A stretch of DNA of 64,000 nucleotides, taken from Siphonodentalium dalli. Taxonomy: Eukaryota; Mollusca; Scaphopoda; Gadilida; Siphonodentaliidae. Shown one piece after another: positions 23,801 through 52,998 of this stretch. The position numbers and the translations under genes were made by a program. The notes under the pieces are model-generated. The model was not told the DNA's origin, did no database searches, and saw nothing but the letters and a program-made list of their open reading frames with translations. The stretch lies in the NCBI GenBank assembly GCA_032622095.1, contig CP136064.1, positions 132,067,129 through 132,131,128 of the forward strand, given 5' to 3'. The number at the start of each line of letters is the position of its first letter. Positions within the stretch are counted from its first letter, which is position 1.

Positions 23801-24310
23801 ACCGGGGAAAGGTTTATCAGGGGTAACAAAATCAACTAGGCGAGCTGTCCTAGCATTGAAGTCGCCCATCAATATAATATGTTCACTAATCATTCTAACT
23901 TCAACAATGGAGGCATGGATTTCATTGAAGCATGTGTTAGAACTGAACTTTGTACCTTCCGGTGGTATATAAACATTTCCAAAAATCAAAGATAAATTCG
24001 GTTCTGCTTTGAATCTAAACCAAGCAACAAATTCATTTTTAATATCAAGTGGCTCGGTAAAATCTACCAAATTATTTTTAACTAGAACACATAAACCTCC
24101 CGATCTGTATCTAGAAATTGTTTCTCTATTTTGTTGTATTAGTGTTTTGAAACCAGGTACCTCTATAACATCCGCTTCGTCGGTTTTGGTTTCTTGTATA
24201 CATAGCACATCAAATTGTTCAATGAAACTTATGAATTCTGGCTCGTTTTGCTTACTCATTATTCCTGCTACATTTAGAGAATATATTTTCAGTTCCATCT
24301 CATGCTTCAT
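20867..24310 (-). CDS. LINE ORF2: endonuclease and reverse transcriptase
   Basis: 1147 residues, intact. The N-terminal ~260 residues are an APE-like endonuclease: LNVAG with Asn13, CIQETK with Glu40, MGDFNA at 148-153, VVDYA with Asp226, and SDVHSH at 251-256. The reverse transcriptase follows, with APGIDGI, YRPITLV, NQAGFRKDYSTVDHI, AFIDLSKAFDNVW, GVRQGENLSPVLFS, the catalytic YADD near residue 750, and YKYLGVTF. A zinc-knuckle-like CRFCYSGEIGDELHVLLIC lies near residue 1075. The protein nicks target DNA and reverse-transcribes the element RNA at that site. Its ATG overlaps the ORF1 stop as ATGA, which suggests translation by reinitiation or coupling after ORF1. Catalytic motifs are complete, so it may still be active. 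Confidence 0.95.
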   Translation of the reverse strand: MKHEMELKIYSLNVAGIMSKQNEPEFISFIEQFDVLCIQETKTDEADVIEVPGFKTLIQQNRETISRYRSGGLCVLVKNNLVDFTEPLDIKNEFVAWFRFKAEPNLSLIFGNVYIPPEGTKFSSNTCFNEIHASIVEVRMISEHIILMGDFNARTARLVDFVTPDKPFPGEQFECSKRSSQDTKTNNYGYKLVDMCKTVESLIVNGRVGSDDGIGKVTCRNVSVVDYAVAAYLFMPLISEFCVGDFNNLLSDVHSHIYCKISFEVSVSSPTVAPSTGKPISLVSENSNHETIKPWNNEYEREYIENIDPKLVTDLNEDIFSLHMRSDVSRIDIDDVNDKLKTIFLRSAAASMGTSKKRKHAATNMRVKNPWFSRDCANSRRQYRKAYKRFRLNQNNTNKQCLEKSRGEYKSTIRRSRLKYKVDTGKKISELRSRNPRGYWRYIGRGKRQTRPSRVPDLKDFHDYFAALNHSDSDVDITDHTTSNVADIQTSALDYDIKLDEIDEALRKLKFGRAPGIDGIKNEYIKMATPLKPFLQLYFNLILKTGIIPTEWGIGVIQPLYKGKDSQLPENYRPITLVSCIAKLFTSIISERIQLFLDQNAILFENQAGFRKDYSTVDHIFTLNAVIDLAKARKKKLYCAFIDLSKAFDNVWRAALWRKLIEVGISGRILVVIRNMYESIKSCVISDNEYSDLFDCEVGVRQGENLSPVLFSLYTNDLEMKLGANSENGIHITDFQNLNENYLKLFCLLYADDTVLFSFTPQGLQHMLNDYAEYCELWKLKINNSKSNVVIFGRHRKKDKLPQSFAFNNQHIEVTDGYKYLGVTFHKNGSFLNEKKSRCEQAKRAMFALICKIRQFDLSVECIIDIYEKTVVPIILYGSEIWGIYNNDIIQRTELWFLKYVMKMKTSTPTAFVYGELGLYPIKTKIELRILKFWAKLISGKRQKISYLLYWSLCTRFSQNRQLRSKSIWINYVNNLLNSLGHSHMWETHDVSSIKAFNTVMQTAVQDKYTQEWWTILNTSSKCKLYKNIKPAFGYESYFNSLSRKEAHTLLKFRTRNHRLPIETGDWADENPSSCRFCYSGEIGDELHVLLICDKFEYQRRKFIAPYYYTRPTMVKMNQLMNNNKPKVLRNLCKVISCIFSALMQDS

Positions 24311-25923
24311 GTCCCCTTGTCCCGTCCCTGTGCCAGAGGGACCACAGGGGTGGGACCGGGGGTTATATCCACGGCTTCATCTGCTGTAACACCCAATGCA
24401 TCCTGTCCGGATGTTGCCACTAAGCCCGGTTGTGGTACACCAACCACCGGAGGTCTGGCTGAGCTTTCACCTCCTCTGATTGGTGCACGTCCCTGGGGTG
24501 GCCTAAAATGGTCACTCACCGAGTTCATTGGCTTACCTGGGTACCGAAATTCATCCTGAGTATCAGGTTGCATTTCAATATCCGGTGTTTTCACTACAGG
24601 GCAGGATGCAGGGGCAGGCATTCTTGGGCGGACAGAAATTATGGGCGGTACTTGTTGTCGAAAACTGTTGTTTCCTGCAGTGTTCGCATAATTTGATTGT
24701 ACTCTAGGTTGGGAAAAATTCCCTGCTGCTGGGTCAATCGGGGACTCAATCAGCCTATAGTTCATATTACGAAAGTTGGTTTGTTGTATCATCGGCACAA
24801 GGGGGTAAGACCGATCGGGATTCCATCTGTACATCGGTGGGTCATCAGGGCACACTTGATAGTTATTCACAAACAGTCTGTCACCTGCAACGACGGCTTT
24901 TTTGCCACTGCTTCTGGCACTCTTTGCTACCGGGAATAGAATAGCTTTCCTATAATCGTCAATCTCTTTCGGATATTGTTCGGTGATATAGAATTGTTGG
25001 TCTCCCTTATCGCGGACTGCCCTTTTAACATCTTCACGCTGACGGAATTGTACGAATCGTGCGATGACGCGCCTTGGTTTGTTGGGAAAGGTACCTCTCA
25101 GGCGGTGAACATTCCCGAATTCCATTCTTTCATGAATATCGAGCTCGTCGCGTATGAAATCGCGCAGTATGTCCTCGGTGGTAGCATCCTGGGATTCCGT
25201 TTCAGTTATTCCGGAAAATATAAGGTTACATTTCATACCACGTGATTCAAGATCAATGACCCGTTCGTTTGTTTTTGTCTGCTGACCGGATAGTGATTGC
25301 AGCTCATGATTTATTCGATTGAAGTGGTGCACAAGCTGATCAATAGATTGGCCCATTTCGAATTGTTTTTGTGTTATGTTTCCCATATTACACGCACTTT
25401 GAGCCGCGATTGACTTCGTGTGTTGTATTTCTCTACCCATGTTTGTGACTATATTCTCCACACTTTCCAGCCTCTGGCCAAATTGACTAACATCTGTATG
25501 CACTTGGTCCAGTTTGTCTAATCTAGTGTTCATTTGTTGCAAAATTGAGAATATTTTATGCACGTCTGATTTGTCATCACTTGATTTGTTGTTGGGCCCT
25601 GCATTGACAGGGGTTTTGGGATTAGTTTGGTCATCGAAAATGATCCTGGAACGGATGGGTGCGCACAGTTCACTCGATCTGTCCTGATTTTTGACAACTT
25701 TGTCTATACTTCTGGGTTGAAACGTGATTGGCGTATTTTCGGGATCTAGAATATTATATGATTGGGTATAAACAGAAGCGATCTCACCCATGCTGCTGAA
25801 GTCTGGTGTTGACGCCATGTTTGGTTCCTTTGCTGGAGGAGGTGTGAGTTCTTGGCTTGCCTTCCTCTTTGTAATGTCTGTTACACCTTCCATTTTGGCG
25901 AAATTATCGAAAAACACACACAC
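24307..25923 (-). CDS. LINE ORF1: RNA-binding coat protein
   Basis: 538 codons from the first ATG; the start MEGVTDITKRKASQE, ten codons further in at 25893, is more likely because the preceding residues resemble untranslated leader. Residues about 120-230 have the heptad spacing of a coiled coil. Residues about 231-310 (NLIFSGI ... VHRLRG ... RVIARF) resemble the RRM of L1-type ORF1 proteins, and 311-360 its C-terminal domain. The last ~150 residues are rich in Pro, Gln and Asn. Such proteins trimerise, bind element RNA and act as nucleic-acid chaperones. The family link is by pattern, not by search. Confidence 0.85.
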   Translation of the reverse strand: MCVFFDNFAKMEGVTDITKRKASQELTPPPAKEPNMASTPDFSSMGEIASVYTQSYNILDPENTPITFQPRSIDKVVKNQDRSSELCAPIRSRIIFDDQTNPKTPVNAGPNNKSSDDKSDVHKIFSILQQMNTRLDKLDQVHTDVSQFGQRLESVENIVTNMGREIQHTKSIAAQSACNMGNITQKQFEMGQSIDQLVHHFNRINHELQSLSGQQTKTNERVIDLESRGMKCNLIFSGITETESQDATTEDILRDFIRDELDIHERMEFGNVHRLRGTFPNKPRRVIARFVQFRQREDVKRAVRDKGDQQFYITEQYPKEIDDYRKAILFPVAKSARSSGKKAVVAGDRLFVNNYQVCPDDPPMYRWNPDRSYPLVPMIQQTNFRNMNYRLIESPIDPAAGNFSQPRVQSNYANTAGNNSFRQQVPPIISVRPRMPAPASCPVVKTPDIEMQPDTQDEFRYPGKPMNSVSDHFRPPQGRAPIRGGESSARPPVVGVPQPGLVATSGQDALGVTADEAVDITPGPTPVVPLAQGRDKGT

Positions 25924-26000
25924 AAATGTTCCTTTTATTATATATTTGAAGTTACGTCCTGGAATTTAACGATAAATAAAAGGATTTAGGCGGATTCTAT

Positions 26001-27634: not shown

Positions 27635-29245
27635 GAATTGTTTATTCTCAAATCGCCGGACGTGTCCGGTATAACAGAGATTAGTTATGAACACACTTCA
27701 ATATGTACATATAGATAATATTGCAAATGAAAACAATATATAGGTCAATAATCGTGTATATACGCGCGGAGAGGGTGGGGAGGGGTTTTGGGTGAGGTGT
27801 GTGTATAGGGGACTAACATCGGGTCTGGCATAAATCACTGGGGTAAGGTGACATTCGTGTTGATCATATTTGTTTGCCTCCCGTATAATTTCGCTGTATG
27901 TGAACGTACGTGAGATGATTTAGGTGGGGGTGCTTCAAGGTTCGCGTTGTTATGCCACAGGGGGCTCCATTAGGCGAAGGGCGTCTCGGATGAACATGCT
28001 AAGATTGGTGAGGATTCTTTTATTTGTGCACGTGAAATGGGCACTGAGTTTGTGGGCATTGGGACGCGTGTAATAGTATGATTTAAGATATTTTCGTCTC
28101 AAATCGCGTAGTTTTTCACATTTGAGTATGATATGGTATTTATCACCAAGTTCAACGTCGCATAGCGTGCACTTTCGATCGGAGTAGTCTTTTTTTGCCC
28201 ACGATCCTGATTCGATCGGTAAGTTATGATTTCTTGTACGAAATTTAATCAGACGCGTTACTACTGTTTGATTTTCTAAAGAGAGATATATTTCCTTTGA
28301 AAAGTCAATCTTGATGATTCTGTAGAAGGCACATTTATTGGATTTTATACTATATCACCATGCCATGATTATACAAATGCGTCTTGTATTCGACCTATGA
28401 TGAGTCTGTTGAAAGATGGTGGGTTGATAGTTGCTTGGTCTATCCAAATATTGGATAGGCCGAGATTATTTAGGTTATTTTGTATAAAGTCAGTCCAACC
28501 ATTTCTCCAGTTGTTTGTGCAGTGATAGCTATACAGTACATAATAGAGTATAAGTGGGAGTCTATTGCACTGCATGTTCATAAGTTTATTCCAATATGTT
28601 AGACATCGAAATTGTATCTTTTGCGCAATTGGGCATATACCCGTCTCCCCATAAACAAAACATGTATTTGTGGTTTTGCGCAGGTTAAGTACAAATTTAA
28701 GGAACACAATTTCTAACTTTTCTAGGCAGGTGGTGTTTTCAAAACCCCATACTTCGGCTCCATATGTCATTATGGGGTTATTGCTTTTTCATAAATTTCA
28801 AGAACGCTGTCATAAGAGAGGTTATTTTGTCTGGTTTTACTTATGAGTGCGTACATAGCTTTCTTTGCATCTTTGCATCTTATGTTTCGTTCCCTGCTAA
28901 ATGTTCCATTTTTACTAAACCACGTGCCCAGGTATTTGAAGCTATCCACAATCTCAATTTCGTTACCGTTTATTTTGAATGACATTGATTTTCTACCAAG
29001 AACCATGATTTTAGTTTTGGAGGCATTTATGCTTATCTTCCATGTGTCACAGTACGATGCGAAGTGATTTAAGGCATTTTGTAATCCGGAATGGGAGTCT
29101 GAAATTAGAGCTGTATCATCTGCGTATATTAATAGGAATAACTTCATATATACCCCTGGTTCATGGCCAACAATTTTGTAGGTATTCCTCGACATCGTTG
29201 ATGTACATGGCGAAAAGTAGCTCGATGAGAGACAATCACCTTATT
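27635..29245 (-). pseudogene. second LINE: 3' half of a broken reverse-transcriptase ORF and 3' UTR
   Basis: On the minus strand the frame runs from MYINDVEEYL and LLIYADDTALIS (YADD near 29120) through FKYLGTWFSKNGTFSRE, MTYGAEVWGFE and GETGICPIAQK to the C-terminal YYYTRPNAHKL block, with a stop at 27950-27952. Several frameshifts break it. The 3' UTR ends in TTTATTCTCAAATCGCC, like the full-length LINE. The gene is interrupted at 29245 by the 12.3 kb DNA transposon; its upstream part lies at 41529-41764. Confidence 0.9.
29239..29245. repeat. target-site duplication CCTTATT, left
   Basis: Matches 41529-41535. On the LINE sense strand it reads AATAAGG, within the Lys-Gln-Gly codons of the reverse transcriptase, with CAA changed to TAA. 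Confidence 0.85.
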
Positions 29246-31051
29246 AGAGTGGCTAAAATGCAAGCTTGGCGCCAAGCTTGGCAGTTTTTAAGGCAGGTGA
29301 CTAAAAGACAAGCTTGGCGTTTTCAAATTTTTTAAAAGCCTTTTAAACGCAGTTTTCGGGTGAATTATGCGGGAATAGCACCAGTTAATTACTTATATGG
29401 CCCATTTTCGTAAATTAATCGACAATAGTGGCAGTAATGTCCCCGATTGGTTGGTTAATAGGGGGCGTGGTCACAAAATCAAAACATCGTCTTTTTACGC
29501 AGATTTCTTGTCGGTTTTTGGTCGATTTCTCTTTTTAAACATCAGTTGGACTCAGTTTTTTATTCAAAACATGTTGAATGGTTATCATTTATCACTCTCA
29601 TAGTCGAGCTTGGCGGTTTTGAACATTATATGCGAAGAATTTTTGACTTTTAGATGACCGACCACCGAACCGCCAAGCACGAATAAAAAATCTAAATATT
29701 AAGCTGAATTTTTGCCGATTTCTCGTTTCTAAAACACGTTGCATCTAGTTTTTATGTAAAAACGTGTAAAATGATTATCATTCTTCACATATATAATCGG
29801 GCTTGGCGGTTTTGAACATTATATACAAAGAATTTTTTACTTTTAGATGACCGACCACCGAACCGCCAAGCTCGAATAAAAAATCTAAATATTAAGCTGA
29901 ATTTTCGCCGATTTCTCGTTTCTAAAACACGTTTCAGCTAGTTTTTATGTAAAAACGTGTAAAATGATTATCATTCTTCACAAATATAATCGGGCTTGGC
30001 GGTTTTGAACATTATATACAAAGAATTTTTGACTTTTAGATGACCGACCACCGAACCGCCAAGCTCGAATAAAAAATCAAAATATTAAGCTGAATTTTCG
30101 CCGATTTATCGTTTCTAAAACACGTTCCATCTAGTTTTTATGTAAAAACGTGTAAAATGATTATCATTCTTCACAAATATAATCGGGCTTGGCGGTTTTT
30201 AACATTATATACAAAGAATTTTTGACTTTTAGATGACCGACCACCGAACCGCCTAGCTCGAATAAAAAATCAAAATATTAAGCTGAATTTTCGCCGATTT
30301 CTCGTTTCTAAAACACGTTTCAGCTAGTTCTTATGTAAAAACGTGTAAAATGATTATCATTCTTCACAAATATACTCGAGCTTGGCGGTTTTGAACATTA
30401 TATACGAAGAATTTTTGACTTTTAGATGACCGACCACCGAACCGCCAAGCTCGAATAAAAAATCTAAATATTAAGCTGAATTTTCGCCGATTTCTCGTTT
30501 CTAAAACATGTCCCAGCTATTTTTCATGTAAAAACATGTAAAATGATTATCGTTCTTCACATATATACTCGAGCTTGGCGGTTTTTAACATTGAGTACTT
30601 AGAATTTTCGACTTTTATATGACCGCCCACCGAACCGCCAAGCCAAGGCAAAATGATACCCAGACCAAACCGAGGCAAAATGATACCCACCAAATATTGT
30701 CAACGTGTACCCATTAATGATCGTCCATGCAACTAATCAAACTTGTTCAATTATGTTATGTTCTTGTTTCGATGTAGCATTGTGATTTAAATGGCACGTG
30801 TCTGGAACGGTCACAATGATAATATACATGAATTCCAGAGGGCAAACTGTAATATAATTTAATTCTCCATCCACATTAAATTATTATTATTATTATTTGT
30901 TTTTTTGGGGGGGGGGGGGGGGATTTGACCCAGGAGGATTTGAAAGGACCTGAGACGTCATTCTTTCTTTCTTTTTAGTGTAAACATATTTTTATTTCCA
31001 ACATAACATAATATACAGATGATACAAAATTAATATGCAAAATAGAAGAGA
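29246..31051 (+). repeat. left terminal inverted repeat with 193-bp units
   Basis: 1806 bp that match 40310-41528 in reverse. From the end inward: an outer palindrome of AAGCTTGG/CCAAGCTT blocks near 29268-29290, about 300 bp of single sequence, an array of six 193-bp units, then the ATGATACCC repeats and a G16 run, ending at GCAAAATAGAAGAGA. The 68-codon frame at 29397-29603 is also in the right arm and is not a gene. Confidence 0.85.
29608..30650 (+). repeat. six 193-bp tandem repeats
   Basis: Units start (GCTTGGCGGTT) at 29608, 29801, 29994, 30187, 30380 and 30573, exactly 193 bp apart. Each contains an internal inverted pair, GCTTGGCGGTT and AACCGCCAAGC, about 70 bp apart. Regular subterminal units like this are plausible transposase-binding sites. 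Confidence 0.9.
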
Positions 31052-31130
31052 ATCAGAATCAGAATTCAATTAATCTCAAATCGTCGTACATGTTGACATA
31101 ACAGAGACAAATATATGTCACTCACATCAG
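31052..31130 (-). repeat. LINE 3'-UTR fragment
   Basis: TTAATCTCAAATCGTCGTACATGT...AACAGAGACAA resembles the 3' UTR of the LINE at 27640-27700, preceded by an AATCAG repeat that could be the tail. It lies just inside the left arm of the 12.3 kb transposon, downstream of the Tpt1/KptA stop codon. Confidence 0.45.
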
Positions 31131-31218
31131 TGCTATAATAAATAATATTTAGTAAAATGTCCGAAATATGATCTCGTAAAGTATAGCAAAATAAACCGAC
31201 TTGACACATATTTTTGGT

Positions 31219-33344
31219 TTATATTTTCTCCACACTTCCAATCTGCTCGGGGAGAATGTGGGTAGGGCAGAGGACGGTGTGCCTTTGACCGTTTCTGTAA
31301 AGTTGTATACTCTTAAACATCTTCGTCTTTAAGAAAATAGCAGCGGTGTACTTCTTCTTCACATTTAATCCTGGAAAAAATATATTTACATGTAAATGGT
31401 TACTATATATGACACACTGAATTTGCATATTATACAAAAGTGATTGGGGCAGTCGCATTGAGATATATAACATGATTTGAGTTAGGGTGGAACAAAAAGG
31501 AAGCAGATAGTGTTGCACTGTGTTCGGGACAGCAAAATGCATAGAAAGAAGAAACTGAAGAAGGAGAAAGGAAGTAGAAGAGATATGCACGAGACGATGA
31601 CAATGGTGGGGAATTTTCATTATGTGTTCACAATAAGATTTGGTTGTTGCGTGAGTAAAACTGATGCTCGTATGCGGTTATCGACATGCGTCGGACGCCA
31701 TGTGTGTGGGGGGGGGGGGGGTGTCACTCATACTGTAAACAGTTTGCATCCATATAAAATAAGTAAATAAACATTCAGTTACTGTGGCGATACATACTGT
31801 TTGCACCACGATACGATTATCGCCATGTCTCTATACGACAATGAACTATACAAATTCACATTAAGCACATGGACATGCTTTCATTTCTTTATTAAATAAC
31901 TATTGATAGTTTGGATTACCTCTTATTACACGGTCAAGTGCCGATCGTTCACACGTGATTAAGTGCACATACGTTCTACCCATCTTCTTCACGCCAACAT
32001 CGAGAATGGACAGAACATTCTCCCATTTTGTCATATGGACTAGCTGGTCCGTTCTTTTTGGTTCAAAGATGGTGTATTCCATCTCTACTGGGTTTACCTG
32101 AAACGAGAGAATAACAGTTTTAGAAGTAAGACATGGCAAGTACATTGAAGTTCAAAGTGATATATTCACAAAATAATGCACGACTGTACATGATATCGCT
32201 CTCGTTTACTAATATAATTCAATTTCATTCGAATATTCTGATACAGCCCGACTGTAAGCGGCACATTATTAACTTTAGATCTGTACATGCCCGAATATTT
32301 GATATAGCCAGGTAAGTTGTTCCAACATCTATGTTTGTCTGATAACAATGAATACTGGTAACTATCGTGTGTGGTCTGAAATATTAATGGTCTATTGGAT
32401 TGAATGCATGCATTATGCAATGTATACCTTAACGGTGTGTCCCTGTTCTGCTCTGAACCATATCTGTCCGTGTTCTCTCATAATTGTCACTCTTTCACCA
32501 AGATATCCTTGATAAACTACGTCGACGAGGTTCTGACAGACAATTAGTTTCCTGCAATTTCTGGATATAACTGATGCAAGGTGGTTACCTTCCAGGCGCC
32601 CATCAGCTAAAAAAAATGGAAGATGTTGTTAGTCGTTTTCCTGGTTATTTCGATGCCAGTTTATTTCTTCGTAGTATGCCAAATCCAACACAATAGAGTG
32701 TCGGGCAATGATTGAATCAATAAAGGTTTATTCCCCATTCATTTTCGTGTAGTTATACACGAGAAATGTGGATACAACTTTCGCATTTGCAACATCAAAT
32801 AAACAATGTATCATCGTCTTTCTCTCGGATATTTTAGTTGGTCGCAGATAAAAACTGAGAGTCTGCCAAAGTCGCGCCATGCACGATGAGTGATTACAAT
32901 ACATCAAAGTTTAAAGCATTGAAACATATTAAGAATGTCAGATTGAACTGTATGACCGTATACTAAGCGAATAGCCGTGTTTTGTTAGCAATCGCTGTAA
33001 CAATTTTGTTTACTTAACGGTTTTAACACAAGATATTATTTTATTGGAAACATATCAACAACGAATCTACTTCTCCGTGTTCTTCGAAATGGTGCTATCT
33101 TACATACTTCTGTATATTTGCACATTCAATTAATACTTCTCGTAATACAAGCTTGACGTGGTGTTGAAAAGTATATGTATTTATATGGCGGGTCGGCTTG
33201 GAATTTGTTTCCATTACAATGTTTTTTTTTATTTATTTACAGAGAAAATAACTTACTTGGTATCAAGTCTTTGTTGTGTCGTAAATTCCACAGCAATTGG
33301 TCGGACATAATTTGATAGAAGCGTTCGCCATATAATCTATCCAT
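31219..33344 (-). CDS. TRPT1-like: Tpt1/KptA-family RNA 2'-phosphotransferase, four exons
   Basis: Exons on the minus strand are 33344-33257, 32606-32428, 32097-31920 and 31370-31219. All junctions are GT-AG and the phases (1, 0, 1) match, giving 198 residues, a usual length for the family. Signature residues are present: LRH (Arg22, His23), RAEQGH (Arg81), HMT at 110 in place of the usual HGT, and GRTYVHL (Arg130, His134), with the C-terminal strand-rich part in exon 4. Family members move an internal RNA 2'-phosphate to NAD+ after tRNA splicing; some ADP-ribosylate 5'-phosphate ends of RNA or DNA. The gene lies inside a DNA transposon, divergent from the SGNH gene 459 bp away. The splice model is by eye. 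It could be a captured host gene or a long-term element gene. Confidence 0.82.
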
Positions 33345-33802
33345 AGTGACGGTGATTATGTTTTGAAACGTTATTAGGCACTTGGGAAATGACCCGGAAT
33401 GATTTTAGTGTGATGCGATATGGTCTATATAGTAAGTACCTTGGCGTCCGTTTGGCTTCCCATTACGTGATTGACGTCTTTCCTGAATACCGAATTGTTC
33501 TTCTCGCAAAGCAACACCGACAATGAAAACAATTAAAACAAGCGATGTGAGAATAGATCTCACTGGGCTTCATATCATGTTTGCATAGAAGAATCGCGGT
33601 ATGCCATGAAAGGTCACGGTAACCAAACTGATATCAACTTGAATTACCGACAAACGGAGGCGTCATGTTTATTTTAGGGTATCCAATCAGAGCCTGTTGA
33701 TCATACATGGGTTTCCGACAGGAGACGACTTTAAATGAAGGCTCGTATTGCACGAAGCAGATCATTCTGTTCACTTAAACTATTGTTTAACTAAGTTTCA
33801 CC
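33345..33802. promoter_or_regulatory. divergent intergenic region between Tpt1/KptA and SGNH genes
   Basis: 458 bp between the two outward-facing start codons, so promoters for both genes should lie here. I do not see a clear TATA box or a known site; the assignment rests on gene layout alone. Confidence 0.4.
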
Positions 33803-34375
33803 ATGGATAATTCATTCAAGTATGCTTTGCTTGGTAGCAGCTATATAAAACGCCTAGCAATGTATAACGACCACGACATGAATGTGATAGGTGCTCGTGG
33901 AATGATTTTCTTCAAAGGCGGTATGCGGATTGACACTCCAAGAGAAATAAAACATTATCGACACTACCTAGATTTGCTGAAGGTATGGGGGCCCAAGGTT
34001 GTGTTCCTGCAGCTAGGAGGAAACGACATTTCTCCAGATATGCCTGGCGACGAAATAGCCAAAGTTCTTCAAAGCATCGTCAACGAGATTAGAGAAACTG
34101 GGGCAATTGTTTATGTCGGAGAGATCCTGTGGCGCGGAAACACCGATAAGGTTCCGGGCCTGACACCCGAAATGTTCCAGAAAAAAAGAAAACGGATAAA
34201 CGCCCTGATGAACAAATACATGGGACGCGATTTCATTCTTTTCAAAAAGATCAAGCCTGCGGATTACAGCGACGATATGATCCATCTGAAAGAACCAGCT
34301 GACGACTCCAACGTTGGGATCAGAAAATATTTCTTCGCTGTGCAAAGATTGTTTTTCCGACACAACACACGCTGA
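33803..34375 (+). CDS. SGNH/GDSL hydrolase-like protein
   Basis: 190 residues, single exon, ATG in the context TTCACCATGG. Block I is YALLGSSYIKRL with Ser13 as candidate nucleophile (GSS instead of GDS); Gly30 or Gly33 may be block II; block III is LGGNDIS with Asn74; block V is DDMIHL with Asp158 and His161. These are the four SGNH positions. There is no signal peptide, so it is probably intracellular. SGNH proteins hydrolyse esters or sugar acetyl groups; the substrate here is unknown. SGNH-like domains are known in ORF1 of some CR1 retrotransposons, so such a domain in a mobile element has precedent. It lies within the 12.3 kb transposon, convergent with the transposase gene. Confidence 0.75.
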   Translation: MDNSFKYALLGSSYIKRLAMYNDHDMNVIGARGMIFFKGGMRIDTPREIKHYRHYLDLLKVWGPKVVFLQLGGNDISPDMPGDEIAKVLQSIVNEIRETGAIVYVGEILWRGNTDKVPGLTPEMFQKKRKRINALMNKYMGRDFILFKKIKPADYSDDMIHLKEPADDSNVGIRKYFFAVQRLFFRHNTR

Positions 34376-34448
34376 CCTTCGATGACCTATATATATATAC
34401 ATACACATTTTTTGTCTTTATTACATTGTTCATGTTTTTACCGGTATA

Positions 34449-34874
34449 AGGCGCTCATAAATTACTATTTCTTTGGCTTCGGGGGTAAAACAAAATATTT
34501 GACTCGAGTCGAGGAACATACCCGTCAAAGCTCAGAGTGATCAGATATTGATGATTGAGGTTAGTTCAATTGTTTCTAGCCCAGAAACTCGAGTTCAAAC
34601 GGACGTTTTTGTAGAAATATATATATATATATTCGGCATCGTTTCTGTAAAGATCGATAGCACTAAAATTAAGTGGTTATCATTAGCACTCGATTTTAGT
34701 TATCCACATTTAGCTGCAAGAACGTCCGTTTGGACTCGAGTCTCTGGGCTCGTAACAATTGAAATCCCAAAAATCGATATCTGATCACTCTTGAGCTTTG
34801 ACGGGTAGGTTCCTCGACTCGAATCAAATATTTTTTACCCTCGAAGCCAAAGAAATAGTAATTTAGGAGCGCCT
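34449..34874. mobile_element. 426-bp foldback MITE
   Basis: Arms of about 170 bp begin AGGCGCTCATAAATTACTATTT and end with the inverse. They share GACTCGAGTCGAGGAAC, GTCAAAGCTC and AACGGACG/CGTCCGTT blocks around a TA-rich centre. No target duplication was settled. It lies 73 bp downstream of the SGNH stop codon. Confidence 0.75.
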
Positions 34875-34901
34875 GATCGGATTGAGTACCTTTAATAAAA
34901 G

Positions 34902-35205
34902 TTATGCATATTATGGAGTTCCTTTTCGAAACAATAAAAGAAAAGATTCCCAACCTTTGTAAGTCGTCAATTCCGATCACGCTAGAAAGTGCCATCACAA
35001 ATGCGGTCAAGACGCATATGCCAAATTTAACAATTCTATTTTGTTGGAATCACATCAAGAGGGATTTCAGATTTAATATCAAACAACATTTAGGGGCTCA
35101 ACCGAAAGAGATCACCGTGTATTTGAATGACCTTGCAGTCATACTTAAATGTAACAATGTTTATTTACCATTCAACGTTATTAGCATCTGCAGAGAGATA
35201 TACTC
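34902..35205 (+). pseudogene. fragment of a second MULE-type transposase
   Basis: The plus-strand frame includes EKIPNL, PITLESAITNAV and ILFCWNHIKRDF, collinear with EKIPNL, PIVFDREDAFSNAV and FFCWNHLKRDL of the main transposase. It is diverged, truncated on both sides, and the second catalytic Asp region reads LES. It is opposite in orientation to the main gene, so it comes from a different copy. The downstream break is at a Helitron fragment near 35206. Confidence 0.8.
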
Positions 35206-35441
35206 GGAAACGGGTGGAGCTATCGACTTGAAATTTGCTATGTGAATGTATCTTGCCCCGGATACGAATTTTATCGGGTCGCCGAGCCCGTGCGACGCAA
35301 GCTTCGCGCATGCGCAGACCAGATCTCGGAAACGGGTGGAGCTATCGACTTGAAATTTGGTTACCAGATCTCGGAAACGGGTGGAGCTATCGACTTGAAA
35401 TTTGGTTTTTGAATAGCCCGGACAACGGGCTCATCTGCTAG
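35206..35441 (+). mobile_element. Helitron 3' end fragment
   Basis: Ends AGCCCGGACAACGGGCTCATCTG-CTAG, a hairpin followed by CTAG, the standard Helitron 3' terminus. The body is made of the same 122-bp unit (GAGATCTGGTCTGCGCATGC in reverse) as the Helitron at 52999-53639. The 5' part is missing. Confidence 0.8.
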
Positions 35442-36262
35442 TCTATTATATATATTTGGAAGATCTGTGTGTGTCTGTCTGTGTGATCGCGATGAACTCG
35501 AAAACGACCGAGCCGATTTCGATGAAACTTGGTATGTGGGGGTATTTTTGGCCGGGGACTGGCATAGGCATATTAATTTGTCCGTGCGACGTGACCTTGG
35601 CCTTGACATCGGGTCATTTCAAGGTCAAACGTCCGAATATCACGGGATTTCGATGAAACTTGGTATGTGCGGGTACTTTCGTCCGGGGAGTGGCATATGC
35701 CTATTAATTTGCCCGCGCGACGTGACCTTGACCTTGAAATAGGGTCATTTCAAGGTCAAACGCCCGAATATCACGGGATTTCGATGAAACTTGGTATGTG
35801 GGGGTACTTTCGGCCGGGGAGTGGCATAGTCCTATTAATTTGCCCGTGCGACATGACATTGACCTTGAAATCGGGTCATTTCAAGGTCAAACGCCCGAAT
35901 ATCACGGGATTTCGATGAAAATTAGTGTCTATGGATACTTTCGTATGGGGAGTCTCATAAGCCCGTGTGACGTGACCTTGAAATCTGGTCAATTGAAGGT
36001 CAAATCGCGAATTTTGATGGGATTTCGACAAAATTTGATACGTGGGTTACTTTTGTCCACTGAGTGTTTTGGACGGGTCAAAGCGTGACCCCGACCTGAC
36101 ATTGACCTTAAAAATGATCAATTCGAGGTCAAATCCCACCAAATATCCCGGGATTTCGATGAAAATTGGTGTCTAGGGATACTTTCGTATGGGGAGTATC
36201 ATAAGCCTATTCATTTGCCCGTGCGACGTGACCTTGACATCGGGTCAATTCAAGGTCATTCC
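35442..36262 (+). mobile_element. Helitron 5' part with 131-bp repeats
   Basis: Starts TCTATTATATATATTTGGAAG directly after the CTAG of the previous Helitron, so the two are joined head to tail. The body is about six units of a ~131-bp repeat with GGGATTTCGATGAAACTTGG and the pair TGACCTTGA / TCAAGGTCA. No 3' terminus is seen; the element stops near 36262, where it cuts into the transposase gene. Confidence 0.75.
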
Positions 36263-37349
36263 TAATGACATGTCTACGTTAGGCGCAAAAAGTGTGTCCT
36301 GAAATCCAAGAAACCATGGAAACTGGTCGGCGAGAATAGTCTGAGAGTCCCTAATTATACTGTCACAGAGCCACTGACCCGTGCTGATAGTCATTACTTT
36401 ACTGGGTGTCAATTTATGAACAGTATGTTGCGTCCTTACCGGAGATGATTGTTGTGATGACATTTTCGGCGGCGGCGACGCCGGCGAAAACAGCCTTCTA
36501 CGCTTTGCGGTGGATATAGTGGGCAGAATAATCGGTTGATCCGGTGATAAGACTGGAGAAACTGTGGGTGAAGGTGAAAGTTGGATATCGGTGAATACTG
36601 CCGGATTTGTTTTTGGTGATTCAGAACGCTCTGGTGTAAAAGACACGTTTGTCGGAGAACTAGAGAGTATCTGTGTGAAATCAGGCAATTGTGATGTATT
36701 TCCCTGAGATGCAGGGAGCGGAGGAGTTGTAGTCAATGGTGTAGACATTTTTGAATTGGCGGCACGAATTGTGGTTATAGGATGAGTTCGGGTAACGTTG
36801 AAAGTTATCTTCTGGTTGCCATGTCTTGTCTTTTTTAGACAAGATTTTGGGGGAGTTGGTGTGGTTATCGCGACAACTTCCGGTGATGTTCTGACAGGTG
36901 AGCTCACATTTGATGCGGTCACAGAAATTGGTCGAGGTGACTGAGACTGCTCTGGTGTAGTCGGAGATGAGCTTACAATTGATGAGGCCAAAGAATCTGA
37001 TGCGGGTGTACTCACAGATCAAAGAATCTGGTGCGGGTGTGGACAGACGATCATAATCGTTTTTTCTTGGCTTCTTGTTGCCAGATTTTTTATCCTCACG
37101 CGAGCGACCGCGTTTCCGGAGAACCGTCAGGTTAACAGGCCTGGTTTCTGGGTTATCAACTCCCATGCCGACGAGTAATCTGGCGGCTAAAATGTGGTAA
37201 CATGTGGCATTTGATGCACAACCACATGTCTCTTTGGGGAAGAGTTTTATGCAGTAGTTGTCGCCTCTGCTGCCAACTACACAAAATAGATGCTGTTCGG
37301 GGACAAACGATATTCTGTTTGACCTAATAACTTCATTAGCGAGAGCAAT
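36245..37349 (-). pseudogene. C-terminal part of the MULE transposase: SWIM finger, Ser/Pro-rich tail, start of ULP1-like domain
   Basis: From 37349 downward the minus strand encodes IALANEVIRSN, then CGCASNATCYH (37194-37227), a CxCxnCxH SWIM finger usual in MULE transposases. A basic segment and a Ser/Pro/Thr-rich tail follow, with a frame change near 37015 beside a ~30-bp duplication. The end, GQWLCDSIIRDSQTILADQF to GFQDTLFAPN, resembles the start of ULP1-like cysteine peptidase domains, which occur in some MULEs; this part is inference. The catalytic region is missing because a Helitron fragment begins at about 36262. The link to the main frame crosses a TA repeat at about 37351-37363. 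Confidence 0.7.
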
Positions 37350-39568
37350 CTATATATATATATTTGCTCGTCGTCACCATCAGAATCATCCATATTGAGA
37401 CGACCATTCCTTGTTTCCTCGACAATGTCACGCCAATGTGTTACTCCTGGAGGCATTATACACTCTCCATCTTGGAGTCTGGCTGACTCGTAAACCTCTC
37501 TTAGTACAAAGTTGCCTACTCCAAGTCGTCCTCTTTTGTATTCGTAAAAATAAAATTTACAAAGAAAATACAAAGAAAGTACAATTGCGTCAATCGGAGC
37601 CTCTTTCCAACCTTGCAACTGTTTCAAGACAACATTGAATGACTCAGACTGATTGTTTGTGATGCCAGAGAGAGAGTCGTACACTTTATGTGGACGGAGC
37701 AACCAGGCACCAGCGCCTCGTTTGATGTCGCTTTTCATATTTCTATCAAAATAAGATTTAACTGACTGTGTCCAATTAGAAGTGAGGTCTTCGTACCTCT
37801 TCTCAAAATCATCCTCAGAATTTGCCTTCAACAAAGATATCAAGTCCTGCTTATAAATGGCAATTTCGTCTACATTAGCCTTGAGTTCAGTTTGTAAATA
37901 TCGATGGAGATCCCTTTTGAGATGGTTCCAGCAGAAAAAAATGGGCATACTTGGAAAGATTGTGCTCACAGCATTCGAGAAGGCGTCCTCTCGATCAAAA
38001 ACTATGGGGATTCGACTTTGAAACTTTGCAAGGTTTGGGATCTTTTCCCTCACCGCCTCGAAAAGACGAGTATGTGGCTTTTGATATTTCCGCTCGTGGA
38101 TGAGAAACGCCAGTGGAAAAACAGGAGAACCTTCAAACAAAATATTTCGAATGACAAGAGATGAAACGTAGAAGTCACCAACGTTGAATGTTGTGTCATA
38201 ACCGAGAACGAATCGACGAGAATCCTGGTCAATTTCGAGAAGATCATTTACCTCATTGGACCATTCTGGGTAATGAAGAATGACATACAGATCGTTGTCA
38301 AGGTAGCAAACTTCAGGTAAATGCTTCAACTGATGTGCCATTTGCAAAAGGTCCCTAATGGGATCTTTAGACCTTGTGCCCGCAACTACATGCGCCTTTG
38401 AATTCCGTACCTGTTTCGTATTTCTTGGATTGAGGACACCGTTATGATCTGGCTGAATATTATGATCTGACACGAGGCGTTGGTATATGGTATGGGGGTT
38501 GGATTCAGAAGATGTCACAGCTTCTCTGATAGAATGCAATGCAGAAGGTGCAGTTCGGTTGAATTTGGAACGACTATTTTTGGAATTGCCATGAGGGAAG
38601 CCAGAAGATAATGATTCGCTGCCCATATAATGGATCAGCACTTGATTTGAATTTTCATATAGGGTATACGCAGTGCGCACAAACGAGCCTGATCCTGTTC
38701 GATCACCAGCTCCCTGTTTTATATAGAACCGAGTTCTTGTGATAAGAGGGTCCTTCTTTGGAAAGTTGTTAGGCCCTTTGTTAACCCAACGATGCTGATC
38801 AGCTTTCCAATCGTCACGCTTAACTGGGTCATCATTTTTGTAGATATATAACGTGCCACCGATTGGCTTAACGGGTGGGGTGTTACCAACCTTGACCAGT
38901 CGATTTTGGTTTGATGAAAGTATGTCTATCGCATCGTCATTTGAAAGGGGACCGTCCCAGCTATCAAGTTCAGAATTTGGACTGGCTGCAGTTTCAGCAT
39001 CAGGATTTGTGTCTATCCCCGAATCCTGTAAAAGACAAAAGGTCAACGTTAAATACACGTTATTGCAATCATATTAGTTAAAAGATAAAATATACGATTT
39101 GATACTAGATCGTACGAATTTCAACGAAGTCTTAACGTTCGAATTGTGTTAGCCTATATTTATAAATTATAATGACCGTCTCATATAAAGAGCGTTCACT
39201 TTACCGTGACTTCATGTATTTTCTCGTTTTTTTTTTTGTAAAGTAAACTGAACAATCATTTGATATCGAATAGGACACCGCACATGAAACTACTAAATCG
39301 TAGTGCGATACAACAATTCAATTAGTGACAAATAGAATACATTCAAAGGTTATGATTTTATTTGTTGTCGTGGAATGATGTCGACATTAACTATAGTGTT
39401 TATATTAGGCTTTTCTAATATCACAATTATTTGCATCATCTAAATGTTTTTTCTTCACAATATACTGTAGAAAAAATATATTATTTGACTTCCCATGAAA
39501 AAACGGACCAATAACCGGAGTACAGTTGAATGCTATATACATATGCAATATTATATATTACTCACCAT
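37277..39568 (-). CDS. MULE-type DDE transposase with one intron
   Basis: Exon 1 supplies only the start codon (39568-39566), followed by GTGAGT; the intron runs 39565-39026 and ends TTTTACAG; exon 2 starts GATTCGGGG, so the protein begins MDSGIDTNPDAE. About 580 residues follow to the stop at 37277. An N-terminal domain (WKADQHRWVN) is followed by the DDE core: GYDTTF (Asp ~278), PIVFDRED (Asp ~345), FCWNHLKRD (Cys/His ~366/369) and NNQSESFN (Glu ~462), all standard for Mutator-like transposases. The stop comes after a TA repeat that shifts the frame away from the SWIM finger, so this copy is probably no longer full-length, unless a very short intron is removed there. It should bind the terminal repeats and cut the element out. 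Confidence 0.85.
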
Positions 39569-40309
39569 TGCCACTGTCTTTCTGGAACTGATGTTGTTCG
39601 CTCACCAGCGGGAATTTATAGCAAGAAGGCGTGTCTAAATCAACTCAAACGAAACCCATACCGTCGCACGTGCGTGTCACCGTTAACACTTCGCATGATC
39701 GGCGGCATGTACACAAAAGTGACGAGTGTTCTGTGGGGAAGCAAAAAAACAACCCTATCAAAACAGCGGCACATAGACGTGTCACTGAATAAACAGTTCC
39801 ACCACTTCACTTACCAATGCACTGTATGGTGTGTTTATGAGCGATAACAGTTTGTCCGATTTAGTAAGCGTCATGAATTGTTTTTAAAGCAATTGCTAGT
39901 CAATTGAGCTGTGTCAAAAAAAACTAAAACAAATCATGAGTTGGGGTTCAGATTCCCACGTTGAACCAACGCGTTTAGTTTGATAATTCTGACAGAGGGT
40001 ATGGATCTATTCTGTAACGGAGTTTTCGTGTCGATTATAATTCACTTCATCCTGGTGAGTAAACTACTCGAATTGCAACTAACCGGTTCTTGGCTAGTCA
40101 GTGATATATATAAAATAAATGAAACCTAAATTAATGGGGACGGATGAAAGAAAACTCAAGAAAGCTAAGAAAAAGAAACATTATCTCAAGCCTTTCCCAT
40201 CTGATCGATACCCCTCCCTCACTTATCGGGGAAGTGGCATGTCGCCAAAGAGGAAAAGACTTCATATAAGCCATCGGGCTTGTTGTCTGGTCCTCATTTC
40301 CATACATTA
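39569..40309. other. transposase upstream region and inner flank of right arm
   Basis: Should hold the transposase promoter. A basic 70-codon frame (40119-40331, Lys-rich start) overlaps the arm boundary; it has no recognised domain and I do not call it a gene. Confidence 0.3.
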
Positions 40310-41528
40310 TCTCTTCTATTTTGCATATTAATTTTGTATCACCTGTACACGTGCATATTATGTTATGTTGGAAATAAAAATATGTTTACACTAAAAAGAA
40401 AGAAAGAATGACGTCTCAGGTCCTTTCAAATCCTCCTGGGTCAAATCCCCCCCCCCCCAAAAACAAATAATAATAATAATAATTTAATGTGGATGGAGAA
40501 TTAAATTATATTACAGTTTTCCCTCTGGAATTCATGTATATTATCATTGTGACCGTTCCAGACACGTGCCATTTAAATCACAATGCTACATCGAAACAAG
40601 AACATAACATAATTGAACAAGTTTGATTAGTTGCATGGACGATCATTAATGGGTACACGTTGACAATATTTGGTGGGTATCATTTTGCCTCGGTTTGGTC
40701 TGGGTATCATTTTGCCTTGGCTTGGCGGTTCGGTGGGCGGTCATATAAAAGTCGAAAATTCTAAGTACTCAATGTTAAAAACCGCCAAGCTCGAGTATAT
40801 ATGTGAAGAACGATAATCATTTTACATGTTTTTACATGAAAAATAGCTGGGACATGTTTTAGAAACGAGAAATCGGCGAAAATTCAGCTTAATATTTAGA
40901 TTTTTTATTCGTGCTTGGCGGTTCGGTGGTCGGTCATCTAAAAGTCAAAAATTCTTCGTATATAATGTTCAAAAACGCCAAGCTCGAGTATATTTGTGAA
41001 GAATGATAATCATTTTACATAAAAACTAGATGCAACGTGTTTTAGAAACGAGAAATCGGCGAAAATTCAGCTTAATATTTAGATTTTTTATTCGTGCTTG
41101 GCGGTTCGGTGGTCGGTCATCTAAAAGTCAAAAATTCTTCGCATATAATGTTCAAAACCGCCAAGCTCGACTACGAGAGTGATAAATGATAACCATTCAA
41201 CATGTTTTGAATAAAAAACTGAGTCCAACTGATGTTTAAAAAGAGAAATCGACCAAAAACCGACAAGAAATCTGCGTAAAAAGACGATGTTTTGATTTTG
41301 TGACCACGCCCCCTATTAACCAACCAATCGGGGACATTACTGCCACTATTGTCGATTAATTTACGAAAATGTGCCATATAAGTAATTAACTGGTGCTATT
41401 CCCGCATAATTCACCCGAAAACTGCGTTTAAAAGGCTTTTAAAAAATTTGAAAACGCCAAGCTTGTCTTTTAGTCACCTGCCTTAAAAACTGCCAAGCTT
41501 GGCGCCAAGCTTGCATTTTAGCCACTCT
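40310..41528 (-). repeat. right terminal inverted repeat with three 193-bp units
   Basis: 1219 bp, reverse of the left arm. It has three units instead of six, at about 40706-41170, one of them shortened by about 11 bp. The missing three units explain the 587-bp length difference between the arms. Confidence 0.85.
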
Positions 41529-41535
41529 CCTTATT
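41529..41535. repeat. target-site duplication CCTTATT, right
   Basis: Right copy of the 7-bp duplication, the first bases of the upstream LINE fragment. Confidence 0.85.
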
Positions 41536-41764
41536 TTAGGCCAATTAGACTTGAGAAAAACCCAGATGACTCATCGGTCATCGCGCACATCTTTAAATTA
41601 TGGTACATACTCTTGATAGTATTCAGGATTTTTCCATTTACGCCAAAATGTAAAAGTTTTCTCCAAAGGCCTTCTCGCCAAACACTATCAAATGCTTGTG
41701 AAAAATCGATGAATGCGCAATATAGGTTTTTCTTAGAGCTATAGTCCTTTTCATACCGTTGTAT
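41529..41764 (-). pseudogene. second LINE: upstream reverse-transcriptase fragment
   Basis: On the minus strand it reads LYCAFIDFSQAFDSVWREGL and on to GFFSSLIGLK, where CAA has become TAA just before the insertion. It continues in register at 29245 with GDCLSS...MYINDVEEYL. The fragment is 5'-truncated near 41764. Confidence 0.9.
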
Positions 41765-44260
41765 ACGTGTTGTCCGGATAATTCAAGTTAATATCAACTG
41801 ATCCCAACTACTAACTTGACATCATGAATATCCATCACATTGTTCAAGTCAGCTTTGAATGTGGTTCAGATCTTCTGATTTTTTAAGGAGCTATCTCCCT
41901 TTTTCGACTACAAAAATAAAACTGATTCCTCATGTGCAAAATTCCACTCACATTGTGTTTTTTCTGAGCTTGTATCTCAAATGGTTGTATTAGCACACTT
42001 GGCGACATGCTTCCACGACGTCTTGATGTATGTATCTTCAGGTAAAACTTATTAGTTTTAAATCTGCATATATCTCACATGTTGTTTCGTTGTCCACCTG
42101 GACAGACTCTACAACGGGTGCAATCTGAAATGATGACAATTTAGTCAAAATGAATACTTCGTTCGCAATTTGTGCCATTCAAACATGCACACAGTACATG
42201 TGAAAGGCGCAATGAACGGACATCATTATGTGGACATGCATGGTGTAATCCTATTACTGACATGAATTGCAAATAGAACGGCCATGATAACCCCAGTGCA
42301 TGACTGATGTGGTAATGCCATTGCTGGTGAAATTATTGGCAGCTACGTTTGTCACACCCGCAGCATGCAGTTTCGGCGATTATTTATAAAACAAAATTGA
42401 TGACACCCACCCTCCCAACACCAAAGCGCTCCACATAGAGAGCATTTTGGACTATTCTATTAACGTTTATGGTCGCTGCCATCTATTTTATGTCACATGT
42501 CCTTACAGGATAACCCCGTGTAAATTCAAGAACCAACCCATTAATCTATAAATCTACATGTATATGTCCAATTTAAACAACTGACATTTGTTCAGGATGC
42601 AGTGATTGCAAAGTAGTCCCATTGCTGAACACCCCCTTAAATCAACCAAGGGGATCCATAATCCCATATCTGCAGGAATGATAAGAACAATTTATGGAAT
42701 AAAATATTTATATAGATAAATATTTATGTATAGATGAATAACTTTCATGCTCACAAGTTTATGATCACAACCAAATTTATTGGAAAAGGAAAACACAATA
42801 TTCCACGGCGTACCCACATTGAGTTCCCATATTTAGTTGTGCTTCTGTTTACATACCACAGCGCAATTATATTGGTTAATCACAAACAAATGGTATAAAC
42901 GCTCTTTGTTATTTCCATATCAGGAAAACAGTAACAAATAACGCTCTTTATTTGTATCATATCCGGATCTAAACAAAAGCCAGGTAACGTAACGTTTTTT
43001 GCCTTTGTTTACATAACAAAGGAAAAACATTTGATAATAACATACTGTTTGTGCCATATTTATGATTGGTATAAGAACAAGGTATGTCTATATTTTACTA
43101 TTCTTTCTGTTTATGGCGGTTTGTGACGGAGCTGACTATTTTAACAGCATACCCACCACCAACGCCGCCCGTATTTTAAACCTATAGTTTCTCGAACTCG
43201 GCCACTTACCATTCGCGCTTTCTTGATTTCTACAATCTTTCTACTTCTCTGAGGAGATAGCTCAACAAAAGCAGATATATGCTTGCTGCTATAGATCCTC
43301 TTCCACTTTTCTATTCTACTCATGTTTCCATCATCAAAATGTTGTTCATCATAAATGTAATATTAATTGAGCATCAATATTGTTTAAATCAAAATATGAA
43401 CAAAGCTATTGCATTGATGCATATATTCGTTGACCAGCATCTACAATATGAAGGCAAAACGTATACTTACATTGAAATGTTAATTGAGAGGAGCCAAATA
43501 TGTAAACCGTGCTGTAGTTCCGTGGAGCTGGAGCATCAAGGAAGGGCTTCATAAGTTGCAAAACATTTTGCCCTAACCCCTTTTGTATATTATAGATGTC
43601 AAATAAATTTCAAGTCAAGGTGGATCAATTGATCTTCTTAAAAACCTGGTCTGACTTCGTTTCAGCACATTTCGTTCTAGCGAATAACAACCAGGGGATC
43701 GGATTACGAGTTAATTCATCTTAAATGTAGTCAGTCGATCGTATTTATCTCGTTTGTTGACCTTTATCCAAAAAAAACACAAAATGTGTCGATTTCTGGG
43801 CTACGATGTTGTTTCTTTGTGGAAGGCGACTGCGCCAATTCGCACGACAGTAAATATATTGTGGTTTTAACATCTAACGTTTAAGTATGATTGTGTGCCA
43901 TACAAATTACCACCCCTTTCTTCGTGGTACAATCTCTTCAGGAACACATTGATGACTCAAAACAATTGAAGAGGGTGTATTAAATGAGAGGCGTTTTAGC
44001 TCTATTGATATTTTCCCGTGCAGGAACGCGCTGTCATTGAACAGTACTCCGAGTGCATTGAAGCGTTCAACTCTTCGTCGATAATCCACCAAGGCCATTG
44101 TATAGCGAACGTATTCAGCGAGAGACTTTGTCAAAATGATTACGCATTATTAATGAAATTGATAAAATTAAGTCCGGGAGCAATAGGGGTGAAGTAAAAA
44201 TTCTCTGCTAAAGTTTTTCTCTCTATGGATTGTGATTGTGGGTAGTGTGTACATCAATTT
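41765..44260. other. region without recognised elements; candidate exons only
   Basis: Holds three candidate exons on the minus strand described separately, a 75-codon minus-strand frame at 43907-44134 without recognised motif, and two copies of the ACGCTCTTT motif at about 42900 and 42941. Confidence 0.3.
42038..43552 (-). CDS. candidate spliced gene of unknown function
   Basis: Three pieces look like exons. 43552-43471 starts with ATG (MKPFLDAPAPRNYS) and ends at CAAT|GTAAGTAT. 43323-43210 reads from an ATG (MSRIEKWKRIYSS ... KKARM) to ATG|GTAAGT. 42124-42038 follows TCATTTCAG and reads IAPVVESVQVDNE to a stop. The second and third join in phase 0; the first does not join the second in a compatible phase at any acceptor I could find. 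I recognise no family. Splice sites are good but short exons like these arise by chance, so this stays tentative. Confidence 0.25.
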
Positions 44261-52180: not shown

Positions 52181-52904
52181 CTAGCAGGTTAGCCCGCCAC
52201 TGGCGGCATTCGTCCCATGGCTTTGTTCGAAAAAGCAATTGCAACAGGTTCCGAGACACTTGTGCTGCATTTGCAGCAAATTTCGGCAATAGTCAGAAAC
52301 ATGACAATTTTAATTTAATTTTTGGTTTTTCAATGAGTTAATTATTTTGTTTTTCAATGAGTTAATTGTGCCTTTTTAATTTTTTAATTTAATTTTTTGT
52401 TTTTAAATTTTACCCGATTTTTTTTGGTTTTTCAAGGAGTTAATTGTGCCTTTTTAATTTTGTTTTTCAATTTTACCCGATTTTTTTTTGTTTTTCAATG
52501 AACCCGTCCATGACACTTCCCGTATTTAGCAAGTTTGAGCTCAATCGGTTCGAGTCTATAAAGGACACACACATATATATGACACTTCCCGTAGGTAGCA
52601 AGTTTGAGCTCAATCGGCATTCCCTGGAATTTCCCAGTCAATATTTAGCAAGTTTGAGCTCAATCGGTTCGAGTCTATAAAGGACACACTCATATATATG
52701 ACACTTCCCGTAGGTAGCAAGTTTGAGATCAATCGGCATTCCCTGGAATTTCCCAGTCACCAACGCGGCGTAATTTTGGTACATATATAGAGACCAATTG
52801 TCCATCGGCTGTCATGTGTAGTAAAGATGTCTTATAAGCCGACATTGCCGTGAGGATGCCCGTTTCTACACGCGTTTTCGATTCTATGAAGTACCCACAT
52901 ATAT

Positions 52905-52979
<75 letters not shown>

Positions 52980-52998
52980 TCTCAAATTATATAGTAGA
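52181..52998 (-). mobile_element. Helitron unit B
   Basis: 818 bp, CTAG at 52181-52184. Includes several copies of GGTAGCAAGTTTGAGCTCAA and the long TA tract near its 5' end. Confidence 0.85.
52917..52976. repeat. TA dinucleotide microsatellite
   Basis: About 29 TA repeats within Helitron unit B. Confidence 0.95.

Follow-up and report, generated by a model that had tools for sequence, protein, structure and literature searches.

A Mutator-superfamily transposon family carrying KptA/Tpt1-type and SGNH hydrolase genes in the scaphopod Siphonodentalium dalli

Examination of a 64,000-nucleotide stretch of the genome of the scaphopod mollusc Siphonodentalium dalli (NCBI GenBank assembly GCA_032622095.1, contig CP136064.1, positions 132,067,129 to 132,131,128; henceforth the window) reveals a DNA transposon in which a Mutator-like element (MULE) transposase, a gene for an RNA 2'-phosphotransferase of the Tpt1/KptA type (henceforth KptA) and a gene for an SGNH hydrolase lie between long terminal inverted repeats (TIRs; Table 1). 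The window element belongs to the Mutator superfamily, and the proposal of a first-pass annotation, made from the bare sequence, that a MULE-like transposon flanked by a target duplication is present here is borne out by TIRs of 99% identity, by a transposase that exceeds the cut-off of the Pfam MULE profile PF10551 and by a family-wide target duplication of 9 bp. The genome searched in this study comprises nine contigs (2.2 Gb); loci are written as contig:Mb, and contig C4 holds the window (C4:132067129-132131128).

The inverted repeats pair over 516 nt in their outer part (29246-29761/41013-41528, 99% identical) and over 573 nt further in (30344-30916/40447-41019, 99%), with more paired stretches up to about 31051/40310, giving a TIR length in this copy of 1.2-1.8 kb that is built on 193-bp tandem units. 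Tandem units, which might correspond to the minisatellite near the 3' TIR of Rehavkus, occur within both TIRs and in the interior. The target duplication of the window copy is visible over 7 bp (CCTTATT), and its left edge is best read as having lost 4 bp from CTTATTTTA, which makes this copy fit the 9-bp rule of its relatives. The transposon seems to sit inside a long interspersed element (LINE), whose reverse transcriptase it interrupts.

The transposase of the window copy matches PF10551 with 30.8 bits (cut-off 27.6) and the CG-1 profile with 25.8 bits (cut-off 23.5). It also contains a Cys/His motif which we take to be SWIM-like and for which the domain scan returned no Pfam SWIM match. 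Three acidic residues, D277, D344 and E461, presumably the DDE residues of the active site, are invariant across the transposase at C4:266 (L029) and 14 relatives. Given that the frame of the window copy is interrupted at a TA run close to 37355 and its similarity to the family ends near 36257, its transposase is broken; the MULE transposase of the first-pass annotation is thus upheld as to its domain and corrected as to its frame. Elsewhere the frame is open over 1165 aa (C7:31.34) and 1140 aa (C4:266), and in C7:20.18 it is split by small indels, its end running on into a part that resembles Ulp1 and a pattern that resembles PHD. In the family the former reaches 17-18 bits against PF22179 (cut-off 27), and the terminal Cys/His pattern of the L032 open reading frame (ORF) reaches 17.7 bits against PF00628 (cut-off 24); both parts are so named because relatives score above the cut-offs (P0003 for Peptidase_C48, P0034 and P0040 for PHD). 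The N-terminal CG-1 match is just over its cut-off, as it also is in P0001 and P0017 (the latter with an additional WRKY match below cut-off), hinting at a link of the CG-1 domain with transposons.

The KptA gene is complete, as first annotated, and consists of four exons on the minus strand joined by GT-AG introns. Its product of 198 aa matches PF01885 (PTS_2-RNA) with 47.6 bits (cut-off 26, E 2.6e-12), residues 16-177 covering positions 9-170 of the 177 in the profile, and a 60-residue stretch matches tRNA 2'-phosphotransferase 1 in the PDB (7yw2, E 1.6e-4). The catalytic tetrad Arg-His-Arg-Arg is intact (R22, H23, R81 and R130): R22-H23 fall on profile positions 15-16, counted from the start of the match, and R81 and R130 align with arginines in the PDB alignments. 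A plain PF01885 search of the genome (83 matches, with the best 150 of 154 candidates scored) did not include this gene among its matches, probably owing to the shortness and weak signal of the exons. The SGNH-like gene likewise stands, as a single exon encoding 190 aa that matches PF13472 (Lipase_GDSL_2) with 34.0 bits (cut-off 32.9); its blocks GSS (residues 11-13), GGND (72-75) and DxxH (158-161) are presumably the motifs of the family. Among 38 pattern stretches from viral contigs there was no relative.

Table 1. Features of the transposon in the window and of its immediate surroundings (window positions)
Feature	Position	Strand	Remarks
LINE reverse transcriptase, interrupted, one side	28770..29240	-	PF00078, 47.8 bits
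Left target duplication, eroded	29239..29245	+	CCTTATT visible
Left terminal inverted repeat	29246..31051	+	Family terminus one base further out (G AGAGTGG), changed or lost in this copy
Subterminal tandem repeat, left arm	29557..30643		Period 193 bp, 5.6 copies
KptA exon 4	31219..31370	-	With stop codon
KptA exon 3	31920..32097	-	R130, RTYVH
KptA exon 2	32428..32606	-	R81, RAEQGH
KptA/Tpt1 exon 1	33257..33344	-	Start codon; R22-H23 of catalytic tetrad
SGNH/GDSL hydrolase gene	33803..34375	+	190 aa, single exon; GSS, GGND and DxxH motifs
Nested small foldback element	34446..34877		Inverted-repeat pairs I15-I17 and I23; also in L049, partly in C7:20.18 (L031)
Fragment of second MULE transposase	34886..35245	+	About 41% to family transposase, measured in L031 and L049
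131-bp minisatellite	35515..36262		Also inside L031/L032, L049 and L050
Transposase linker	36245..37018	-	Lacks the Ulp1-like and PHD-like parts that come next in other copies
Transposase piece with SWIM-like Cys/His motif	36684..37349	-	Other frame
Transposase main piece	37280..39025	-	CG-1-like N-terminal domain and MULE DDE domain; departs from family sequence at TA run near 37355
Right terminal inverted repeat	40310..41528	-	About three 193-bp units shorter than left
Subterminal tandem repeat, right arm	40720..41170		Period 183, 2.4 copies
Terminal C of element, then 9-bp right target duplication	41529..41538	+	CTTATTTTA; rule from six other copies
LINE reverse transcriptase, other side	41531..41782	-	By eye; seems to continue the first side in frame apart from one in-frame stop

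A search of the genome with a 270-base TIR probe (40 scored of 812 candidates) gave at least 41 matches, each 99-100% identical, on seven of the nine contigs. Besides the window, seven intervals have opposed TIR ends, and six of these are simple copies that span 2.0-18.5 kb, share the termini GAGAGTGG...CCACTCTC and are flanked by a 9-bp target duplication that is exact in five and has one mismatch in the sixth (established partly by eye). The seventh, C5:34.88, was rejected as a long copy, being a nested chimera with no transposase or KptA ORF seen in its interior, the portion that was read, and was left out of this set and of the interior reading. Two TIR ends of the family meet directly at C1:166064809-166065341, with their outer ends touching. 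The transposon family is young and many-copy, and the 12.3-kb interval first annotated as the element, while real, arose by deletion from an element of about 19.6 kb (length extrapolated) and holds a nested foldback repeat, a fragment of a second MULE and minisatellites.

Whether both cargo genes recur next to the transposase was a check put forward in the first-pass annotation. The relevant interiors of five transposase-bearing copies were read (the window, C7:31.34, C7:20.18, C4:266 and C3:73.77). KptA exons occur in four of the five (three of the four outside the window), all four exons in three, and the SGNH gene in two. C7:31.34 carries all four KptA exons and an SGNH gene identical to that of the window over 573 of 573 bp, in the same order and orientation. 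C7:20.18 retains KptA and lacks SGNH at a junction with 5-bp microhomology; SGNH was probably once present there, because the foldback repeat is truncated on the SGNH side. C4:266 also lacks SGNH, at a junction with a duplicated stretch, so that the cargo losses in C7:20.18 (L031) and C4:266 (L029) are accounted for by these junctions. Because some other copies also carry both genes, KptA and SGNH look like parts of the element rather than a chance capture.

For SGNH the association can be followed further. Of 126 matches in a genome search in which the best 150 of 200 candidates were scored, 13 were listed as family copies (98-100% identical, three of them partial or split), with C7:132.87 (89%) and C8:91.9 (75-81%) omitted. 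The transposase list comprised 19 matches of at least 92%, omitting for instance C9:213.81 and C1:237.83, in which only small pieces reach 94%. An SGNH gene lies within 11 kb and in the same layout beside 8 of the 19 listed transposases, the window included (nine if one at 30 kb is counted), and chance association was rejected given an expectation of 0.003; no transposase on the list lies within 35 kb of four of the 13 SGNH copies. Furthermore, a sister transposase (52% identity) at C7:151.82 has an SGNH relative (60%) about 10 kb away in the same layout, and the transposases at C7:76.31 and C6:183.14 (46-47%) have SGNH relatives (41% and 39%) on the same strand 4.2 and 3.5 kb upstream. By these comparisons SGNH looks like an old partner of these transposases.

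Together these observations make it quite probable that the window holds a deletion derivative of a young Mutator-superfamily cut-and-paste family, the full element of which encodes a transposase, an SGNH hydrolase and a very divergent KptA. The complete element, of about 19.6 kb, would combine long TIRs with a transposase made of CG-1-like, DDE, SWIM-like, Ulp1-like and PHD-like parts, and would be Rehavkus-like by its PHD-like end. The transposase would bind the subterminal repeats, excise the element and join it to a staggered site, and the window copy would be mobile only if another copy supplied this enzyme.

Several observations weigh against this reading. Four of the six simple copies span just 2.0-5.4 kb and, judged by length, cannot hold the gene set because the TIRs alone exceed 1 kb each; many copies are probably without both cargo genes, which the first-pass annotation had named as a refuting outcome, but they resemble the deletion forms of other DNA transposons in this, and the fuller copies keep the genes. 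C3:73.77 has neither KptA nor SGNH, its TIR being joined to the interior, and C4:266 has KptA exons 2-4 without exon 1 and its Arg-His pair while its transposase frame is still open. Reading on downstream from the sister transposase at C5:134.74 (L048) revealed neither cargo gene in the stretch covered, and the partnership with KptA is for this reason demonstrated in one family only. Regarding the proteins themselves, SGNH exceeds its Pfam cut-off only just, and the Ulp1-like and PHD-like parts of the family found no Pfam match over the cut-off in the domain scan. A word search of a large protein set returned no relative at E 0.001 of KptA (63 candidates; one junction of the query was slightly wrong, PSADG for PTDG) or of SGNH (27 candidates). 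Finally, KptA differs between the window and the other copies in only one to two codons, all nonsynonymous, and a selection test is ruled out because the copies are too alike.

Comparison with described systems supports the Mutator assignment in the PF10551 match, the DDE-type residues, the long TIRs, the SWIM-like motif and the 9-bp duplication, the superfamily being marked by duplications of 8-11 bp; the window element differs by its KptA and SGNH genes and by TIRs that contain 193-bp tandem units and measure 1.2-1.8 kb, compared with the 14-500 bp given for MULEs in a survey (PMC6446971), the table of which also gives 613. In the same survey Rehavkus, a Repbase group, is treated as an outgroup of MULEs. 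The family resembles it in the 9-bp duplication and may do so in its minisatellite and in the PHD-like end of the transposase (below cut-off, and missing from the window copy); it is likened to Rehavkus by features alone, its TIRs lying outside the 26-400 bp listed in Table 1 of PMC6446971 and its several genes contrasting with the one ORF listed there. Long, internally repetitive TIRs are also a trait of foldback-type transposons such as Galileo and Drosophila Foldback, as described in PMC3573991; the window element differs in carrying cargo genes. The oyster transposases P0001 (Crassostrea gigas) and P0003 (Pinctada imbricata), compared as proteins only, are 39-40% identical to that of the family, P0001 having CG-1 and MULE domains and P0003 a Ulp1-type peptidase over cut-off with MULE below it. 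Since extra ORFs such as mudrB, mutB and vanB/vanC are described in MULEs (PMC6446971), MULEs that carry accessory genes belong to a type already known. A described transposon with KptA and SGNH was not found in the literature searched, by searches partly aimed elsewhere and not amounting to proof, and as far as these go the two constitute a new gene set for a MULE.

As to what KptA might do, the element protein shares PF01885 and the Arg-His-Arg-Arg tetrad with TRPT1/Tpt1/KptA enzymes and differs from them in its carriage by a transposon and its high divergence. PMC6582358 describes this tetrad as essential in TRPT1-type enzymes, reports that human TRPT1 ADP-ribosylates 5'-phosphorylated single-stranded RNA and DNA, a mark reversed by macrodomains, and calls the role of TRPT1 elusive in most species outside plants and fungi; RNA is also reported as a target of its ADP-ribosylation in mammalian cells in a later paper, PMC9458441. 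We tentatively suggest that the element KptA may, in an NAD+-dependent reaction, add ADP-ribose to the 5'-phosphate ends of nucleic acid derived from the element, thereby protecting or hiding it. Its target would most likely be RNA processed from the long inverted repeats, with DNA ends or 2'-phosphates as possible alternatives. The SGNH enzyme would be a long-standing accessory.

A rather doubtful alternative is that KptA acts as a classical 2'-phosphotransferase on element or host RNA, in RNA repair or splicing-type ligation, instead of modifying 5' ends. This is the reaction for which the family is named, and the PF01885 match is over the cut-off; however, PMC6582358 states that for most organisms other than plants and fungi no source of 2'-phosphate RNA is known, and nothing in the element points to one.

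Another possibility is that KptA travels as a passenger, having been taken up with its introns from a TRPT1-like gene of the host and amplified in a recent burst without a role in the element, leaving SGNH as the only real partner. Two host-like TRPT1 exons (C6:143059560 and C9:175229727, their membership in host genes being presumed) offer a comparison. Exon 2 of the element KptA ends by eye at the same site and phase as both of them (after QGH-x-V/F-K/E, phase 0), and the intron before it has the same phase as theirs, displaced by one codon. The shared intron site and phase suggest that a eukaryotic gene was captured long ago, in the form of DNA. Such an origin suits a passenger, as does the failure to find KptA in the sequence covered downstream of the sister transposase and the tendency of MULEs to take up host gene fragments (PMC6446971). 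Yet exon 2 has diverged strongly from the host-like exons (11/60 and 14/59 identical residues), while in the window, C7:31.34 and C7:20.18 copies the four exons remain open and the Arg-His-Arg-Arg tetrad persists, which would hardly be expected of an old neutral passenger; we regard this explanation as unlikely. The possibility, raised in the first-pass annotation, that the ordinary host gene was caught in this one copy was rejected on the same divergence and on the presence of KptA exons in several copies. It is very improbable that the two genes come from a separate mobile element which landed once inside the MULE, since, despite the foreign debris in the interior (foldback repeat, second MULE fragment and minisatellites), C7:31.34 has the same genes, order, orientation and ends, SGNH recurs in the same layout beside both family and sister transposases, and an inverted-repeat scan, with no dedicated boundary search, showed no separate boundaries around the two genes.

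KptA genes also seem to occur in other mobile contexts in this genome. Among about twenty PF01885 loci fetched, the ORFs L014 (1371 aa) and L009 (1492 aa) were found by domain scan to fuse PF01885 to a TatD DNase, and eight ORFs of 894-1492 aa (L010-L013, L015, L016, L027 and L028) end like these fusions or similarly. Most of the KptA-TatD ORFs follow a frame that by eye reads as a Ty3/gypsy-like pol with a PHD-like end, and some copies are more than 99% alike. The element KptA was rejected as a member of this fused kind, with exon 2 identical at 15 of 67 residues and a different layout. A related MULE transposase, P0012 (36% identity), ends in a C-terminal Macro domain (118 bits) in place of the Ulp1 and PHD parts of others; its MULE match is below cut-off (19.5 bits), and the fusion could be a gene-prediction artefact, against which its 13 member sequences speak. 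This Macro domain fits an ADP-ribose theme and proves nothing. Taking the MULE KptA, the gypsy-like KptA-TatD fusion and P0012 together, it is conceivable, if doubtful, that transposable elements of animals modify the ends of nucleic acids by NAD/ADP-ribose chemistry, whether as an accessory function or to counter host defence. Transposons that keep KptA, namely this MULE and the unrelated retroelement fusion, would offer a natural setting for finding out what kinds of nucleic-acid end are marked by these enzymes, and whether such marking helps an element to escape silencing or to move; with SGNH present beside diverged transposases, ester chemistry can be put to the same question.

The remainder of the window contains further repetitive and coding sequence. 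Minisatellite arrays lie at 52523-53494, the second of them related to the repeats inside the transposon. Two long overlapping ORFs of 552 and 1169 aa on the minus strand at 20867-25965 appear by eye to be a LINE with open frames. At 59075-60775, a 566-aa ORF has a Gln-rich stretch and a P-loop-like motif (GPTSSGKT), and we presume that it perhaps resembles a packaging-ATPase-like gene of a viral-type element.

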